64,000 nucleotides of DNA from Halobiforma lacisalsi AJ5 (lineage in GTDB: Archaea; Halobacteriota; Halobacteria; Halobacteriales; Natrialbaceae), in NCBI RefSeq assembly GCF_000226975.2, contig NZ_CP019285.1, positions 372,001 to 436,000 on the forward strand. The letters are read 5' to 3'. A model generated the notes under the pieces. It saw nothing but the letters and a program-made list of their open reading frames with translations. It was not told the origin of the DNA and made no database searches. This document shows, in pieces, positions 46,369 through 53,378 of this stretch. The translations under genes and the position numbers were made by a program. Positions within the stretch are counted from its first letter, which is position 1; every line of letters begins with the position of its first letter.

Positions 46369-47241
46369 ATGGGCATCCTCTCTCGGACCTCCTACGTCAT
46401 CCGGTCGAAGATCAACTCGCTGCTCAACCGGGCGGAGGACCCGACCGAAACGCTGGACTACTCCTACGAGCAGATGCGCGACCAGCTCCAGGAGGTCAAA
46501 CGTGGCATCGCCGACCTCACAACACAGAAAAAGCGCCTCGAGATGCAGAAACGTCGCCTCGAGGACAACGTCGAGAAACACAACGAACAGGCCCGGACTG
46601 CCGTCCAGCAGGGCCGTGAGGATCTGGCGCGGCGCGCCCTCGAGAAGAAGAAGACGAAGATGAACCAGATCGAGGATCTCGAGCGCCAGATTTCGGAACT
46701 ACAGAGCCAGCAGGACAGCCTGATCGAACAGAAGAACGACCTCCAGACCCGCATCGAGGAGTTCCGCACGAAGAAGGAGACGATGAAGGCCCGCCACGAG
46801 GCTGCCAAGGCGAGTTCGACGGTCTCGGAGGCGATGACCGCCACGGGCGAGGAGTTCGAGGACGTCGGCCGGGCGATCGAACGCGCCGAGGAACAGACCG
46901 AGGACATGGAGGCACGAGCGGCCGCGCTCGACGAACTCCACGAATCCGGCGCGTTCGACGACGTCATGTCCGACAAGGACAGCATCGACCGCGAACTCGA
47001 GGAGATGACCGCAGACAGCGGCGTCGAGGCGGAACTCGAGACGCTCAAGTCCGAGGTCGGCGAGGGAGAGGCCGAACGCGAGACGGCGGAGACCGAACCC
47101 GAACCCGAACCCGAACCGACTCCCGAGGCGAGCGACGCGCCCGAAGTCGACGAATCCGAACTCGAGGACCTCGAAGCCGACGTCGACGACGAGGAGATCG
47201 AGGCGGAACTCGCGGAACTCCAGGACGAGGAGCGGGACTGA
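46369..47241 (+). CDS. pspA: PspA/IM30 family membrane-shaping protein
   Basis: A 290-residue coiled-coil protein of the PspA/Vipp1/ESCRT-III superfamily, involved in membrane stress response. The N-terminal helix MGILSRTSYVIRSKINSLLN is followed by long helices with the hairpin KRRLEDNVEKHNEQARTAV. After about residue 205 comes an acidic tail with repeated Glu-Pro and the final helix DVDDEEIEAELAELQDEE, which resembles MIM-like C-terminal helices of ESCRT-III. The tail has a Glu-Pro array (about 47095-47120). Confidence 0.92.
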   Translation: MGILSRTSYVIRSKINSLLNRAEDPTETLDYSYEQMRDQLQEVKRGIADLTTQKKRLEMQKRRLEDNVEKHNEQARTAVQQGREDLARRALEKKKTKMNQIEDLERQISELQSQQDSLIEQKNDLQTRIEEFRTKKETMKARHEAAKASSTVSEAMTATGEEFEDVGRAIERAEEQTEDMEARAAALDELHESGAFDDVMSDKDSIDRELEEMTADSGVEAELETLKSEVGEGEAERETAETEPEPEPEPTPEASDAPEVDESELEDLEADVDDEEIEAELAELQDEERD

Positions 47242-47391
47242 ACTCCTCCTAAATCGGGTTTCACGGAGATCCACGCGTTTTCGAGCCGTCTAGCACGTTC
47301 CCCCGAGTGGCTGCCCAGACACTTCCTCCCCTCGCGGCCGACCGGCTGGCGAACGTCGACGCGACAGCGACAGCCCGACGGTGGGAATAGG

Positions 47392-47404
47392 GGTAACGAT
47401 TACC
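47392..47404 (+). promoter_or_regulatory. Palindromic operator candidate before the HTH gene
   Basis: GGTAA-CGA-TTACC is a perfect 5-bp palindrome with a 3-base centre, 25 bases before the ATG at 47429, in the position where RNA polymerase would be blocked. Candidate autoregulatory site. Confidence 0.4.
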
Positions 47405-47428
47405 AACCCCGACGTGGAAGCGGCGCGT

Positions 47429-47770
47429 ATGGCCACCGAGCCAGCAGCCGGGATCGACGCCATCTCCCAGCTCGAGCAGGCCGTCCTGCTCGGCGTCGCG
47501 AAACTGCACGAGGCGGACGAAACGCCCGTCGACACCCACGAGATCGGACGCACCTGCCGGAAGGAGATCGCGGAGGGCTCCGACCGTCTCGGGACGATCC
47601 GCGAGGCGGACGTGATCCGATCGCTGTACCGACTCGAGGACGAGGATCTCGTCGAGGAGATCGACGCGAACCGGACGTCGCCGACGGGGAAGGGGCGGCC
47701 GGCGTACGAACTCGCCGTCGATCCGGACGCGGTGTACGAGGCGGTCGACGAGGCGCTACTCGACGACTGA
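47429..47770 (+). CDS. HTH transcriptional regulator (PadR-like/haloarchaeal Cdc6-associated type)
   Basis: A 113-residue regulator: LEQAVLLGVAKLHEADETPV, VIRSLYRLEDEDLVEEI and GKGRPAYELAVD form a winged helix with the GRPAYxL wing typical of PadR and similar haloarchaeal regulators. Start ATG 47429 was chosen over upstream in-frame 47381, since 47392-47404 holds the operator-like palindrome. Target unknown. Confidence 0.85.
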   Translation: MATEPAAGIDAISQLEQAVLLGVAKLHEADETPVDTHEIGRTCRKEIAEGSDRLGTIREADVIRSLYRLEDEDLVEEIDANRTSPTGKGRPAYELAVDPDAVYEAVDEALLDD

Positions 47771-47790: not shown

Positions 47791-48300
47791 CTACGTCGGG
47801 GTACCGAGCGCCGTCACGTCGTAGCGAGCGATATCTCCGGGCGACTGCAGGACGATGACCTGGAACGACCAGCGAGCGCCGCCCTCGAGGTCGCCGACGG
47901 TCGCGAGATAGCGGCCGAGTTGTGCGCCGTCGTCGTCGTAGACGCGAACTCGCACTTCGGCGAGTTCGATCCGATCGCTGCCCGTGTTTTCGACGGTTCC
48001 CTGGACGGTCGAACCGCGATAGTCGTCCTCGAGGACGAACTCGTGTTCGACGAGTTCGAGGACGTCGATCCTCGTCACGCTGTCGTTGACTTCCTGTTGG
48101 GCGAGTGCCTCCGCCGCGGTCATTTCCTGGGCCGAACGGTTCTCCGCGTCGTCCCCGACGTCGACGGTCCCTTCCTCGTACCGTGGATCGCCGCTGATCG
48201 CCAGGCCGCCGTCGCCGAGACAGCCGGCGATGGCGGTTGCGACGCCGGACCCGAGCGCGGCGAGGGCTCGACGGCGCTCGAACGACGGTCCGCGCGTCAT
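47791..48300 (-). CDS. Tat-exported lipoprotein with FxLYD-like domain
   Basis: A 169-residue lipoprotein. The signal has twin arginines (FERRRALAALGSGVATAIAG) and a lipobox AGC at residues 28-30, so the mature protein is lipid-anchored on the outer face. The C-terminal domain has VEHEFVLEDDYRGSTVQGTV, VRVRVYDDDGAQLGRYLAT and WSFQVIVLQ, the beta-sandwich pattern of FxLYD domains. Role unknown. Start at ATG 48300. Confidence 0.82.
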   Translation of the reverse strand: MTRGPSFERRRALAALGSGVATAIAGCLGDGGLAISGDPRYEEGTVDVGDDAENRSAQEMTAAEALAQQEVNDSVTRIDVLELVEHEFVLEDDYRGSTVQGTVENTGSDRIELAEVRVRVYDDDGAQLGRYLATVGDLEGGARWSFQVIVLQSPGDIARYDVTALGTPT

Positions 48301-48517: not shown

Positions 48518-49591
48518 ATGGGGTCGTCCGAGAGCGACGAGACGCTCGAGTCCTACGGCGCCGAGATCGGGGTCGAGGAGCGAGGGGGACCTGTGGCCCG
48601 GTTCCGCGAGTGGGTGCTGGTCGAGGGGAATCGGCTACTCGTCGCGGTCGGCATCGCCGCGGCCGTGTTCCTCCTCCTGCTGGTGCTGAACCGAGTCGGG
48701 ATCGTCGCGTTCGTCAACGACAGCTCGATCACCCGTCTGGCCGGCGGGATGATCGCGGGCACGTTCTCGCTCGTCACGCTCGTCGTCTCGATCAACCAGC
48801 TGATCCTCTCACAGGAGTTCGCGTCCGCGGAGGATGCACGGACACAACTCGATGGGGTGATGGAGTTTCGAAACAAGGTCGCGGACACGGCGAAGGTGCC
48901 GGCGTCGCCGGCGTCCCCGGCGAAACTGCTCGATCTGATCGTCGAATCGATCCGCCACAACGCCCGTATCCTTCAGGAGGAACTCGTCGTCGGCGCCGAC
49001 GACGAGTTCTCGCAACTGGTCGACGCGTATACGAACCGCATCGAGGAGAGCACGGACTCGATCGACGACGTCCTGGAGAAGACGAAGTTCGGCACCTTCG
49101 AGACGGTGTCGGCGGCCGTTGCGTACGACTCCGCCTGGCAGCTGTACGTCGCCAGGAACCTGCGGAACCGGCGGGCCGATTCGCTGTCGGACGACGCCGC
49201 GGAGGCGTTCGACGACCTGATCGACGCCCTGGAGCAGTTCTCGGTCGCGCAGGAACACTTCAAGACGACGTACCTCCAGCGGGAGCTTACGCGGTTCTCG
49301 CAGCTGACGGTCTACACCGGCGTCCCCGCGATCCTGTCGGCGATGTTCCTCGGGTTCGTCTACGCCGACTTCGGCGGTCCAACGGTGAGCGCGGCCTCCC
49401 TCCCGTTTCTCGTGAGCGGGGTCGTGGCGGTCGTCGTCACCCCGCTGGCGTTGCTCGTGTCGTACATCCTGCGGACCGCGACGGTCACCCGTCGAACGGC
49501 GTCGGTCGGGCCGATGCTTCCCCAGAAGGATCCGGAAGCCGGCCCGTTCTCGGTGTCGTACGGCGAGACCGAATCGGGGACGGGGGACTGA
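48518..49591 (+). CDS. Four-helix membrane protein, paralog 1 of three
   Basis: A 357-residue protein: two N-terminal membrane helices (about 34-60 and 72-100), a soluble helical region of about 165 residues, then two C-terminal helices (about 265-290 and 300-325) and a conserved tail. It shares with the two following paralogs the motifs TLVVSINQLILSQEFASAED, AQEHFKTTYLQREL and RTATVTRRTASVGPML. Function unknown. Separated from paralog 2 by a divergent membrane gene. Confidence 0.85.
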   Translation: MGSSESDETLESYGAEIGVEERGGPVARFREWVLVEGNRLLVAVGIAAAVFLLLLVLNRVGIVAFVNDSSITRLAGGMIAGTFSLVTLVVSINQLILSQEFASAEDARTQLDGVMEFRNKVADTAKVPASPASPAKLLDLIVESIRHNARILQEELVVGADDEFSQLVDAYTNRIEESTDSIDDVLEKTKFGTFETVSAAVAYDSAWQLYVARNLRNRRADSLSDDAAEAFDDLIDALEQFSVAQEHFKTTYLQRELTRFSQLTVYTGVPAILSAMFLGFVYADFGGPTVSAASLPFLVSGVVAVVVTPLALLVSYILRTATVTRRTASVGPMLPQKDPEAGPFSVSYGETESGTGD

Positions 49592-49686
49592 GTCGGCCGG
49601 CGTTGGGGAGTACGTCCAGGCTCGAATACGCGGCTGTGGCCGGTGAGTGGTGAACGAGTTCCGACCCTCTCGGCGAGCGACGGGAG

Positions 49687-50265
49687 TCACTCCCGGGACG
49701 AGCGCGGCGAGTCCGACGCCTCCTCGAAGGGGGCCTCGGCATCCCTCGCTTTCGGGGCCGTATCGGCGACCGCCGAGAACAACCCGCCGAGCAACAGCCC
49801 GTAGAGAAGGTGACCGAGAAGACTCTCGAAGGCCAACACCGGGAACCCTGGCTCCTCGATTCCTCCGATCCCGGCCCAGGCCGGCACCACGATCAGGGGG
49901 AGTATCGCCCAGATCGCGAGCCCGTAGACCATGCCCGCCAGCGCGAAGCGGAGGCCGTTCCCCATCGATGCGAGGAACCCGGTCTCGACGTCGGCCGTCA
50001 CCGTCCCGAGGATCGGGCCACGACTGATGAGCGCGCCGAAGACGACGCCGAGGACGAGCCCGTGGGCCAGATGGAAGGTCCACCCGGCGGTACCGGTCGG
50101 TTCGATCCCGTATATCGCCGGAATCGCCTCGGTAACGATTGTCGGATCGACGAGCCAGAGCACCAGGCCGAACAGCAACGATCCGACCGCGCCGCCGATC
50201 GCCCCGCCGAACAGCCAGTTTCCGGTGCCGATCCCGTCGGACCCGGGAGCACTCTCAGCGCTCAT
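49687..50265 (-). CDS. Multi-helix membrane protein between the paralogs
   Basis: A 192-residue protein with about five membrane helices (from WLFGGAIGGAVGSLLFGLVL to FESLLGHLLYGLLLGGL). It has small-residue-rich helices and a GLVLGVVFGALISRGP turn; no known family. It runs opposite to the flanking paralogs. The frame is open far upstream, but the first helix follows directly after ATG 50265. Confidence 0.75.
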   Translation of the reverse strand: MSAESAPGSDGIGTGNWLFGGAIGGAVGSLLFGLVLWLVDPTIVTEAIPAIYGIEPTGTAGWTFHLAHGLVLGVVFGALISRGPILGTVTADVETGFLASMGNGLRFALAGMVYGLAIWAILPLIVVPAWAGIGGIEEPGFPVLAFESLLGHLLYGLLLGGLFSAVADTAPKARDAEAPFEEASDSPRSSRE

Positions 50266-50424
50266 GTCGTGCGGGACTACGAGGACCGCCGCCAAAAGGC
50301 CGCGTTGACAGTCACGCTCCCGAGACCGTCGTTTCGGCCGACGCGATCGCCCGTATTGGCTTTCGGGGCCGTCACCTCCCGGGCCCGGTCTTTTACTCGC
50401 CGCCGTCGTCGGATCCGATAGCCG

Positions 50425-51474
50425 ATGAACGACTCGGGCGACTCGGAGTCGAACGAGGGGGGACGCACCGACGGAACCGGCACCGGCGATCGGCTCGGCG
50501 GACCGCGGTACTGGGTGTTGCTCCAGGTGAACCGGTGGGTGTTCACCGGCGCAGTCCTGACCGTCGTGTTCCTCGTCCTCGTCGCGGCCAGCCGGCTCGG
50601 ACTCACGCCGCTCCGGCTGATCATCGAGGAGCAGAACGGCCTCGAGTACCTCTTCTCGGCGTTCATCGGAGCGATCATCACGGGTACGTCGATCGTCGTG
50701 ACGATCAACCAACTCGTCCTCTCGCAGGAACTGGGCGCGGTCGGTAAACAGCGCGAGCGCATGACCGAGGCGATGGAGTTCCGGCAGAGCGTCGAAGACA
50801 CGATCGCCGAGGACGCGAGCCCGCCCGAACCCGCCGCCTTCCTCTTCGAACTCGTCGAGGGCGTCCAGAAACGGGCGAGGGAACTCGAGGCGGAAGTAGA
50901 GACCGAACGCGACGAGGAGTTGCGGGCGAAGATCGGCGACTACGTCGAGGACGTGACCGGAAACGCCCGGAGCGTCAAGAGCGGCCTCGAAGACGCCCAG
51001 TTCGGTACCTTCGGGGTGATCTGGCACGCGCTCAACTTCAATTACTCGCGGAAAATTTACGATGCCCGACAGATTCGTGCGGATCACGCCGACGCGCTCT
51101 CGGCGGACGCCGAAGAGAAACTCGACCGAACGATCGAGACGCTGAAACTGTTCGGGCCGGCCCGCGAGCACTTCAAGACGCTGTACTTCCAGTGGGAGTT
51201 GATCAACCTCTCGCGGGCGTTGCTCTACATTTCGGTGCCGGCACTGACTGTGGTGGCGATCATGCTCATGTACGTCGACGGCCAGGCGTTGCCCGGCACT
51301 TTCCTCGGTATCGACAACCTCGTGTGGGTCACGAGCGTGGGATTCGTGATCGGGATCTCGCCGTTCGTGGTCTTCATCACCTACATCCTCCGGATTGCGA
51401 CGGTCGCGAAACGAACGCTGGCGATGGGCCCGTTCATCCTCCGGGAATCCGAGCGGGACGAGGATCTGGGCTGA
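50425..51474 (+). CDS. Four-helix membrane protein, paralog 2 of three
   Basis: A 349-residue protein with the same layout as paralogs 1 and 3: helices at about 33-58, 72-98, 265-288 and 292-318. Shared motifs: SIVVTINQLVLSQELGAVG, AQFGTFGVIWHALNFNYS, AREHFKTLYFQWELINLS and RIATVAKRTLAMGPFILRES. It is more similar to paralog 3 than to paralog 1. Its start lies 159 bases from that of the opposite membrane gene. Confidence 0.85.
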   Translation: MNDSGDSESNEGGRTDGTGTGDRLGGPRYWVLLQVNRWVFTGAVLTVVFLVLVAASRLGLTPLRLIIEEQNGLEYLFSAFIGAIITGTSIVVTINQLVLSQELGAVGKQRERMTEAMEFRQSVEDTIAEDASPPEPAAFLFELVEGVQKRARELEAEVETERDEELRAKIGDYVEDVTGNARSVKSGLEDAQFGTFGVIWHALNFNYSRKIYDARQIRADHADALSADAEEKLDRTIETLKLFGPAREHFKTLYFQWELINLSRALLYISVPALTVVAIMLMYVDGQALPGTFLGIDNLVWVTSVGFVIGISPFVVFITYILRIATVAKRTLAMGPFILRESERDEDLG

Positions 51475-51562
51475 CTCGCTGCCCACGGACGGACCGAGTT
51501 CATCCCGCGCGTCGCCTGCCGTACTTATTTCCGAACTACCGTGGTACCACCATCCTCGAGCG

Positions 51563-52600
51563 ATGAGCGGCGACGGTTCCCAGCCCGGCGACACGATGGC
51601 CCGACGCAGCGAGTCCCCGACCTGGGTCCACTGGCTCCTGCTGAACGCGAACCGGTGGCTCGTCACCGGCCTTCTCGTCGTCTTCGTCTTCGTCGGCCTG
51701 CTGGTCGTCGCTCGACTCAGCCCGGTCTCGCTCAGGGCGCTCATAGGGACGGGCGACCCAGTCGAGACCCTCTTTCAAGCCCTTTCGACCGCGCTAATCA
51801 CCGGCGTCACGCTCGTGGTTACGATCAACTCGCTGGTCCTCTCCCAGGAGTTGGGGGCCGTCGAGGATCAGCGCAAGCGCCTCGAGGGGGCACTCGACTT
51901 TCGCGAGGACATCGAGCGGGCGATCGACGCACCGATCAGCCCGCCGGAGCCGTCCTCGTTCGTCCGGGCGATCATCGCGGCGTCGGACAAGCGCGCGACC
52001 GACTTCCGCGAGGCCGTCTCCGACAGCCGGGACGAGGAACTGATCGATCGGGTCGACGACTTCGTCGACAACCTCACCGCGCACGCCGACTCGATCCGCG
52101 ACGATCTCGAGGACGCCCAGTTCGGCACGTACGAGGTCCTCAAAGCCGCGCTCGATTACAACTACTCCTGGAAGATCTTCCGGGCGCGCCGGATCAAAAA
52201 CGCCCACGCCGATTCGTTCACCGACGAGGCCGAGGCAGCGTACGACGAACTGCTCGAGTCGCTGAAGCTGTTCGGACTCGCCCGCGAGCACTTCAAGACG
52301 CTGTACTTCCAGTGGGAACTGATCAACCTCTCGCGGGCGATGATGTACGTCGCGGTCCCCGCGCTCGTAGTGACGATGTCGATGCTGCTGTTTTTCGACG
52401 CCGACGTAGTAACGGGGACCGTCCTGGGAGTCGACGTCCTGGTGTGGATCGTCGCGGCCGCCGCGACGGTCGCCGTCACCCCGTTCCTGCTGTTGATCGC
52501 GTTCCTCCTCCGGATCGCGACGATGGCGAAGCGGACGCTGGCCATCGGCCCCTTCATTCTCCGGGAGTCGAGCCGCGGGGAGGAGATCGACTGGGAGTGA
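51563..52600 (+). CDS. Four-helix membrane protein, paralog 3 of three
   Basis: A 345-residue member of the same family: helices at about 30-52, 67-92, 262-284 and 290-316. Shared motifs: TLVVTINSLVLSQELGAVED, AQFGTYEVLKAALDYNYS, AREHFKTLYFQWELINLS and RIATMAKRTLAIGPFILRES. The frame is open upstream, but ATG 51563 gives the usual N terminus. It follows paralog 2 by 88 bases on the same strand, consistent with tandem duplication. Confidence 0.85.
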   Translation: MSGDGSQPGDTMARRSESPTWVHWLLLNANRWLVTGLLVVFVFVGLLVVARLSPVSLRALIGTGDPVETLFQALSTALITGVTLVVTINSLVLSQELGAVEDQRKRLEGALDFREDIERAIDAPISPPEPSSFVRAIIAASDKRATDFREAVSDSRDEELIDRVDDFVDNLTAHADSIRDDLEDAQFGTYEVLKAALDYNYSWKIFRARRIKNAHADSFTDEAEAAYDELLESLKLFGLAREHFKTLYFQWELINLSRAMMYVAVPALVVTMSMLLFFDADVVTGTVLGVDVLVWIVAAAATVAVTPFLLLIAFLLRIATMAKRTLAIGPFILRESSRGEEIDWE

Positions 52601-52634: not shown

Positions 52635-53378
52635 TCAGCCCGACGGCGACGGCCGAACGCCGTACGCCTCCTCGAGTTTCGTCGCCGCCTTCGGGAACAA
52701 CACGTTGTTTTCCCGGTGGACGTGCATGTGGGTGTCCCGCTCGAGTTCCTCGAGGCGGCGGAGCATCTCGCGGTAGCTCATGCAGGCGTCCTCCGGGGGC
52801 TGGTAGCCGTCGGTGAGTTCGTGCAGCCGCTCGAGTCGGGCGGCCGTCTCGTCGTGGTCATCCTCGAGGCTCTCGATCTCCGCGAGCAGGTCCTCGCGCT
52901 CGTCGGCGGCGAGTTCAGTGCCGGTATCGAGCTTCTTGACGATCGGGAAGGCAATCAGTTCCTCATCGTCGACGTGCTCGAGGATGTCGGCTTTCAACTC
53001 GCGGAACTCGGCCTCGGCCTCCCGGAGTTCCGGGTGGGAGTCGCCGTGTACCCGGGCGACTTTCTCGACGAGGGCCTCGAGATCCGGGAGGTCAGTACGC
53101 AGGGGCCGGTGATGTTCCCAGACGATGACGTTCGTCAGCTGGGTCAGCGAGTTCCACTCGGGCGCGGTGTCGTTCGCGTCGTCGTCCGTCAGCGCCCCCT
53201 CGAGGCGATCACGGACCGCCTCGATCTCGAGGTCGTTTGCCTCGCAGGCCGCCGAGAGGGACTGGGAGCCGCCACAGCAGTAGTCGATGCCGAGCGATTC
53301 GAAGACGGGAGCGAATTCGGGGTTCGATTCGACGAGATCGCCGAGCGATGCGTCCGGGTCGATGGAGACGTTCGTCAT
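52635..53378 (-). CDS. ric: Iron-sulfur cluster repair di-iron protein (RIC/ScdA/YtfE)
   Basis: A 247-residue protein: an N-terminal ScdA/DUF542 domain with the YCCGG motif (Cys34-Cys35) and a C-terminal hemerythrin-like four-helix bundle with iron-ligand histidines in VWEHHRPLR, HGDSHPEL, ILEHVDDEE, LEDDHDETA and MHVHRENNVLFP. RIC proteins restore Fe-S clusters after nitric oxide or oxidative damage. GAGGTGACA just before ATG 53378 is a Shine-Dalgarno sequence. A DtxR-like palindrome overlaps the TATA box about 60 bases upstream. Confidence 0.93.
   Translation of the reverse strand: MTNVSIDPDASLGDLVESNPEFAPVFESLGIDYCCGGSQSLSAACEANDLEIEAVRDRLEGALTDDDANDTAPEWNSLTQLTNVIVWEHHRPLRTDLPDLEALVEKVARVHGDSHPELREAEAEFRELKADILEHVDDEELIAFPIVKKLDTGTELAADEREDLLAEIESLEDDHDETAARLERLHELTDGYQPPEDACMSYREMLRRLEELERDTHMHVHRENNVLFPKAATKLEEAYGVRPSPSG

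Follow-up and report, generated by a model that had tools for sequence, protein, structure and literature searches.

In several bacterial lineages, membrane proteins are encoded with or near a gene of the pspA type, including PspB and PspC in proteobacteria, LiaI as well as YdjG and YdjH in Bacillus, and PspM in actinobacteria. PspB and PspC bind PspA. For Bacillus it has been reported that LiaI anchors LiaH and that YdjG/YdjH may recruit PspA through YdjI (PMC9239133). Archaeal Psp networks have been called largely unknown (PMC9239133); the PspA of haloarchaea is considered to have been imported from bacteria (PMC8281802) and, in Haloferax volcanii, the PspA homologue is reported to rise at high salt (PMC3235422, PMC9239133). 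In the operon of H. volcanii pspA, a membrane protein is encoded downstream (locus tag Hvo2637), with similarity to bPH_4 and EphA2_TM (PMC9239133). Here, we describe three genes, termed A, B and C, which follow a PspA gene in a 64,000-nucleotide stretch of the haloarchaeon Halobiforma lacisalsi AJ5 (NZ_CP019285.1, positions 372,001 to 436,000; hereafter the window).

A, B and C are members of an essentially haloarchaeal family of cytoplasmic-membrane proteins for which no curated model exists in the libraries searched. With the bacterial proteins named above, and with Hvo2637, which is compared by its description only, they share the position of a membrane protein beside a pspA-type gene. They differ from PspB/PspC, LiaI, PspM and YdjG/YdjH in having four transmembrane helices (TM1 to TM4), of which TM2 and TM3 are separated by a cytosolic bundle of 155 residues, in having no Pfam match (PspC included), and in being essentially restricted to haloarchaea. 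The neighbouring PspA would fit a role of the family in membrane stress, and we tentatively read the family as a lineage-specific membrane partner of PspA, with a confidence that falls somewhat short of even.

A Paralogous Family Without a Curated Model

An earlier note on this DNA, made from the sequence alone, had placed three paralogous membrane protein genes at 48518-52600. The three genes are found there, all on the forward strand, and they are true paralogues: with B as the query, a search of the same genome retrieves C with an E-value of 2.8e-102 and 49% identity, and A with 1.3e-49 and 34% identity. The motif EHFKT(T/L)Y(L/F)Q(R/W)EL, described earlier as preceding the third helix, is common to A, B and C and indeed occupies that place. 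All three also carry (K/R)RTxxxGP, which had been taken for the end of the tails; the motif is shared but not terminal, as it is followed by 13 further residues in B, 15 in C and 25 in A. Two further copies lie elsewhere in this genome, one an intact paralogue, the fourth (C1:3891139), and the other a remnant truncated at its 5' end (C1:2070203). In Halobiforma haloterrestris, a close relative, gene B is 95% identical. The remnant (L005, G000:C1:2070188-2070508) and a similar one at L051:7809-8105 retain the TM3-TM4 end only.

That no known family was recognised by the first reading agrees with the profile and PDB-sequence searches. A, B and C gave no match above chance to the models of Pfam, NCBIfam, PADLOC and PHROGs, none of their weak matches came near a curated cut-off, and none matched a PDB sequence. 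Among 88 members of the family, for which the best 25 of 33 matched Pfam families were tallied, the leading ones were YtxH (6 members, best E 0.00017) and the Sey1 three-helix bundle (4 members, E 0.001), both taken as matches of helix composition. PspC (PF04024) gave no Pfam match to A, B or C at E-values up to 1 and is not among these best 25 families. A phage origin was rejected, with no family match in 50,697 phage records. In the titles and abstract openings of the papers listed on PspA in archaea and Haloferax, on HPP and DUF6789 proteins, and on bestrophin-like and DUF4239 proteins, the family is not described. The family is thus confirmed to be without a curated model in the libraries searched.

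Topology and the Cytosolic Module

The layout proposed in the earlier note, with two N-terminal helices, a soluble helical part and two C-terminal helices, is borne out by the hydropathy of all three proteins and, for B, by an AlphaFold2 model built from the 88-member alignment (predicted local distance difference test, pLDDT, 88.2; predicted template modelling score, pTM, 0.81). From the N-terminus, the model shows a short helix, TM1, and a TM2 that extends into the cytosol and leads to the helical module; in the C-terminal half, a 57-residue helix bearing the EHFKTLYFQWEL motif runs into TM3 and is followed by TM4. Modelled alone, the module reaches a pLDDT of 92.9 and a pTM of 0.87. The distribution of lysine and arginine in the 88-row alignment places the module and both termini most probably in the cytosol: a sequence has on average 3.8 such residues after TM4, against 0.7 and 0.1 in the two short loops. 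The most strongly conserved stretches lie along the cytosolic edge of the membrane, namely at the cytosolic end of TM2 (residues 96-104, mean 0.84), at that of TM4 (323-341, 0.71) and in the helix before TM3 (227-257, 0.67). The segment at the end of TM2 is nearly invariant among the 88 members, and TM3 and TM4 contain conserved prolines.

The fold of the module itself gives no indication of function, because many unrelated helical bundles resemble it at Z-scores of 9-13. The same helical arrangement is found in pectin methylesterase inhibitors (1xg2_B, Z 11.9, root-mean-square deviation 3.2 over 133 residues) and in designed bundles (8qup, Z 12.8, deviation 2.5 over 112); these scores lie within the range of unrelated bundles and imply no common function. 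A TTYH-like fold, considered via the whole B model (Z 12.1, deviation 5.2 over 127 residues), was set aside, since unrelated bundles score Z 10-12 and the helical background lies near 13; with the module alone as the query, a designed bundle ranks first and no TTYH entry is among the best 50.

Adjacency to PspA Across Haloarchaea

The association with PspA extends well beyond the window. In at least 64 of the 100 genomes that have both genes, a family member lies within 5 kb of PspA, and in at least 29 within 500 bp, with about 1.3 and 0.3 genomes, respectively, expected from random placement (estimated on 101 of the 105 positive rows). The 5-kb count is a lower bound; G333, for example, is missed there and shows adjacency in the PspA-centred sample described below. 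The genomes counted at 5 kb represent 27 of 38 genera and eight family-level groups, and in 53 of the 64 the close pair shares one strand and PspA lies upstream of the family gene, the other 11 pairs being on opposite strands. Viewed from the family, PspA occurs within the flanks covered at 47 of 79 loci (L004 and 78 loci retrieved with B). A set of 24 loci mostly away from PspA (L052 has PspA) shares no neighbour in more than five loci, and the five loci with a recurring neighbour reflect common general gene order.

Viewed from PspA, in a sample of 40 genera (39 regions and the window; of the 42 genera in which PspA was matched, all but g18 and g128 are covered), the family is the commonest neighbour, present in 29. 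In 11 of these genera, belonging to six family-level groups, the two genes form a tight same-strand pair, pspA-4TM, with a gap of 34-135 nt (start codons chosen by rule), and nine of the 11 pairs are flanked on both sides by genes of the opposite strand. The window itself shows no such operon-like pairing. Ancestrally, the order seems to have been pyrG(-) hydrolase(-) pspA(+) 4TM(+) thrS(-) DGCR-like(-), and the ancestral locus was probably a two-gene unit, pspA-4TM, as judged from gene arrangement. The labels DGCR-like, pyrG, guaA, thrS, TrkA, Usp, Vms1 and DUF5802 used for such neighbours come from sequence reading without a family search, and those of the hydrolase (PF01738), PspA, TM_HPP, ScdA/hemerythrin and FxLYD are backed by family search. 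PspC (PF04024) was found in none of 59 haloarchaeal genomes, the control being positive in 7 of 14.

A Candidate Membrane Partner of PspA and Its Alternatives

If the family acts with PspA, its four helices would be held in the membrane, and the cytosolic bundle together with the juxtamembrane EHFKTLYFQWEL and KRTxxxGPFILRE segments would face PspA. The protein could then recruit or regulate the membrane-repair polymer of PspA under envelope or osmotic stress, and might replace PspB/PspC or LiaI in haloarchaea; the window locus would offer several paralogous candidates for the partner. A role as a sensor, the other suggestion of the earlier note, would be compatible with the nearby PspA, to which that note made no link. 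A wider proposal, which we consider unlikely in this full form, is that haloarchaea run a separate Psp-like envelope-stress system, in which an archaeal family of four-TM receptors both anchors and senses for an ESCRT-III-like PspA polymer and has given rise, in Natrialbaceae and certain other genera, to several paralogues that can be combined. Should the family be the partner of PspA, the haloarchaeal stress system would gain its membrane component, and an imported ESCRT-III-like protein would have been fitted with a home-grown receptor. Haloarchaea amenable to genetics would allow the partnership to be tested.

Several observations weigh against such a partnership, and some of them favour its main rival, a doubtful but serious alternative, which holds that the family merely sits in an old, stable block with pspA and acts independently, for instance as a housekeeping or osmotic membrane protein. 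The whole block is kept around PspA, and adjacency may therefore be plain gene order, at least in part: the alpha/beta hydrolase is beside PspA about as often as the family (28 versus 29 of 40 genera), followed by the DGCR-like (21), pyrG-like (19) and thrS-like (14) genes, the outer ones being undercounted since the regions compared reach no further than about 9 kb on either side. The family was not seen near PspA outside the block; the four genera without the four block genes near PspA (L117, L129, L138 and L144) are also without a family gene nearby, and 11 of the 40 genera have none within about 9 kb of PspA. Conversely, the family gene keeps its place where PspA is absent: in G230, G355 and G143, none of which has a PspA above the cut-off, it is flanked by the hydrolase and an HPP gene. 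With the family in four of the five genomes that have no PspA above the cut-off, and PspA in 10 of the 11 genomes without the family, each can persist without the other, and the family is not limited to genomes with a PspA above the cut-off. Among the matches listed, 36 of the 100 genomes that contain both genes lack a family gene as close as 5 kb to PspA; in 12 of them the matches are on different contigs. Additional copies occur elsewhere in genomes and on plasmids, with up to 13 family matches per genome (fragments counted) among the 116 haloarchaeal genomes. The window has a spacing that is not operon-like: 1.28 kb separate PspA from the start of A, and this interval contains a helix-turn-helix (HTH)-like gene and, on the opposite strand, an FxLYD gene. 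PspC has been reported in some archaeal groups, so its absence holds at the level of the lineage only. What gene order alone explains less readily are the tight same-strand pairs in 11 of 40 genera, nine of them isolated between opposite-strand genes, and the adjacency that persists in L122 and L127 despite the opposite orientation of the family gene.

Two further explanations concern what the protein does in the membrane. Bestrophins consist of two TM helices, cytosolic helices and two TM helices, and LRRC8 and innexins likewise have a cytosolic domain between two pairs of TM helices. The shared layout, the near-invariant segment at the cytosolic end of TM2, the conserved prolines in TM3 and TM4, and the several paralogues in many genomes would all suit an oligomeric ion or osmolyte channel opened by tension or salinity, whose paralogues hetero-oligomerise, much as the earlier note had suggested. 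We regard this as quite improbable, given that neither sequence nor fold comparison gave a significant match to any channel family. The Pfam models of bestrophin (PF01062) and DUF4239 (PF14023) do not match A, B or C, and profile-profile comparison by hhalign supported neither, with a probability of 0.4% against E. coli YneE (one sequence) and of 0.7% over 20 columns against eight archaeal DUF4239-like proteins, themselves derived from a sub-threshold PF14023 match. Scanning genomes with the two models gave either nothing or sub-threshold matches, which is uninformative on absence, because the control genomes were silent too, including E. coli, whose yneE is annotated with PF01062. Foldseek with the B model returned no match at an E-value of 0.001 or better, bestrophin-1 (5t5n) appearing at an E-value of 0.69 with a template modelling score of 0.20. 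A match to a well-characterised transporter or channel family was thus looked for by sequence, profile and fold, and was not found. Still less probable is a transmembrane signalling protein that controls the HTH gene at 47381-47770 and serves as a stress switch for the pspA locus. In the window this gene is located between PspA and A, and it occurs in 23 of 79 loci; DNA-binding genes are reported to be common beside pspA in other phyla (PMC9239133); however, its cluster (c32) is absent from all 11 tight pspA-4TM pairs and it is therefore not a constant part of the arrangement.

Distribution and Evolution of the Family

Whether or not it acts with PspA, a membrane family that occurs in 105 of 116 nearly complete haloarchaeal genomes of the order merits a name and a function. 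In a phylum-wide survey of 294 genomes, 44 of the 53 listed members of the order had the family, against one of the 241 others, and it is nearly confined to haloarchaea. The sole carrier outside the order, G020, has a copy (L146:7037-8086, reverse strand) that is 69% identical to a Halosimplex copy and lies in a stretch of 37% guanine-cytosine content, which suggests acquisition by transfer. An open reading frame of the TnpB type, by sequence reading, is located about 2 kb from it. Plasmid records with family matches number 68, Haladaptatus being the most frequent source (13 records); of 25 such matches listed, 24 are annotated as 'hypothetical protein' and one has no annotation. Four genomes (G323, G330, G326 and G348) have 12-13 matches each, fragments counted.

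A tree was calculated by a quick method from 55 of 177 rows (176 from the loci and L004) after thinning at 68% identity. Subfamilies A (14 rows) and B (12 rows) form separate clades, both with a support of 100 in the Shimodaira-Hasegawa-like approximate likelihood ratio test (SH-aLRT), and each includes other genera and family-level groups, so that the split between them is old. Tandem amplification with divergence, as first supposed, therefore holds for the presence of a tandem cluster of paralogues but not as a recent event. The placement of C is weakly supported, and the long branches L004, L120 and L011 are unsafe. Members adjacent to PspA are spread over several clades, falling into the B clade in Halohasta and G325, into a further clade in G309 and G333, and otherwise into the poorly separated part of the tree that holds C.

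Other Genes of the Window Locus

The gene order in the window is pspA-HTH-FxLYD-A-(DUF6789-like)-B-C, and the features are collected in Table 1. The gene between A and B, which had been counted as a divergent fourth membrane gene of the cluster, is not a paralogue: the family search of its own genome did not retrieve it, it occurs in 6 of 79 related loci, and its DUF6789 match is below the cut-off. It is possibly a distant DUF6789 relative, and we take it to be a bystander rather than a family member. The HTH-like gene has no Pfam match, and its weak matches to Lrs14/Sta1 regulators are below the cut-off. From its N-terminus, we read the FxLYD-domain protein as a putative lipoprotein.

Table 1. 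Features of the window locus and segments of protein B (positions in the window)
Feature	Position	Strand	Remarks
PspA/IM30 gene	46369..47241	+	PF04012, E 2e-34, 119.6 bits (cut-off 33.9)
Small HTH-like gene, putative regulator, between PspA and A	47381..47770	+	ATG at 47426 possible
FxLYD-domain protein adjoining A	47791..48300	-	NF038353, E 4.7e-26; in 39/79 loci
Gene A	48518..49591	+	357 residues; subfamily A; tree clade of 14 rows, SH-aLRT 100
DUF6789-like membrane gene between A and B	49687..50265	-	PF20587, 24.1 bits (cut-off 27.1)
Gene B	50425..51474	+	349 residues; subfamily B; tree clade of 12 rows, SH-aLRT 100
B TM1 (residues 37-57) and TM2 (72-95)	50533..50709	+	AlphaFold2 helices, hydropathy
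B cytosolic module (residues 104-260)	50734..51204	+	Antiparallel helical bundle, ~155 residues; module-alone model
B TM3 (258-283) and TM4 (298-322)	51196..51390	+	AlphaFold2 helices, hydropathy
Gene C	51563..52600	+	345 residues; groups loosely with PspA-adjacent members of other haloarchaeal families; own placement weakly supported
ScdA/hemerythrin-type repair protein directly downstream of C	52638-53378	-	Family search; in 5/79 loci

In other genomes, TrkA-like and Usp-like genes are present in the PspA region of L144. A TM_HPP membrane gene (PF04982; for example L023:4132-4695), of which none was seen in the window stretch compared, accompanies family members at 23 of 79 loci and also occurs in three genomes without a clear PspA.

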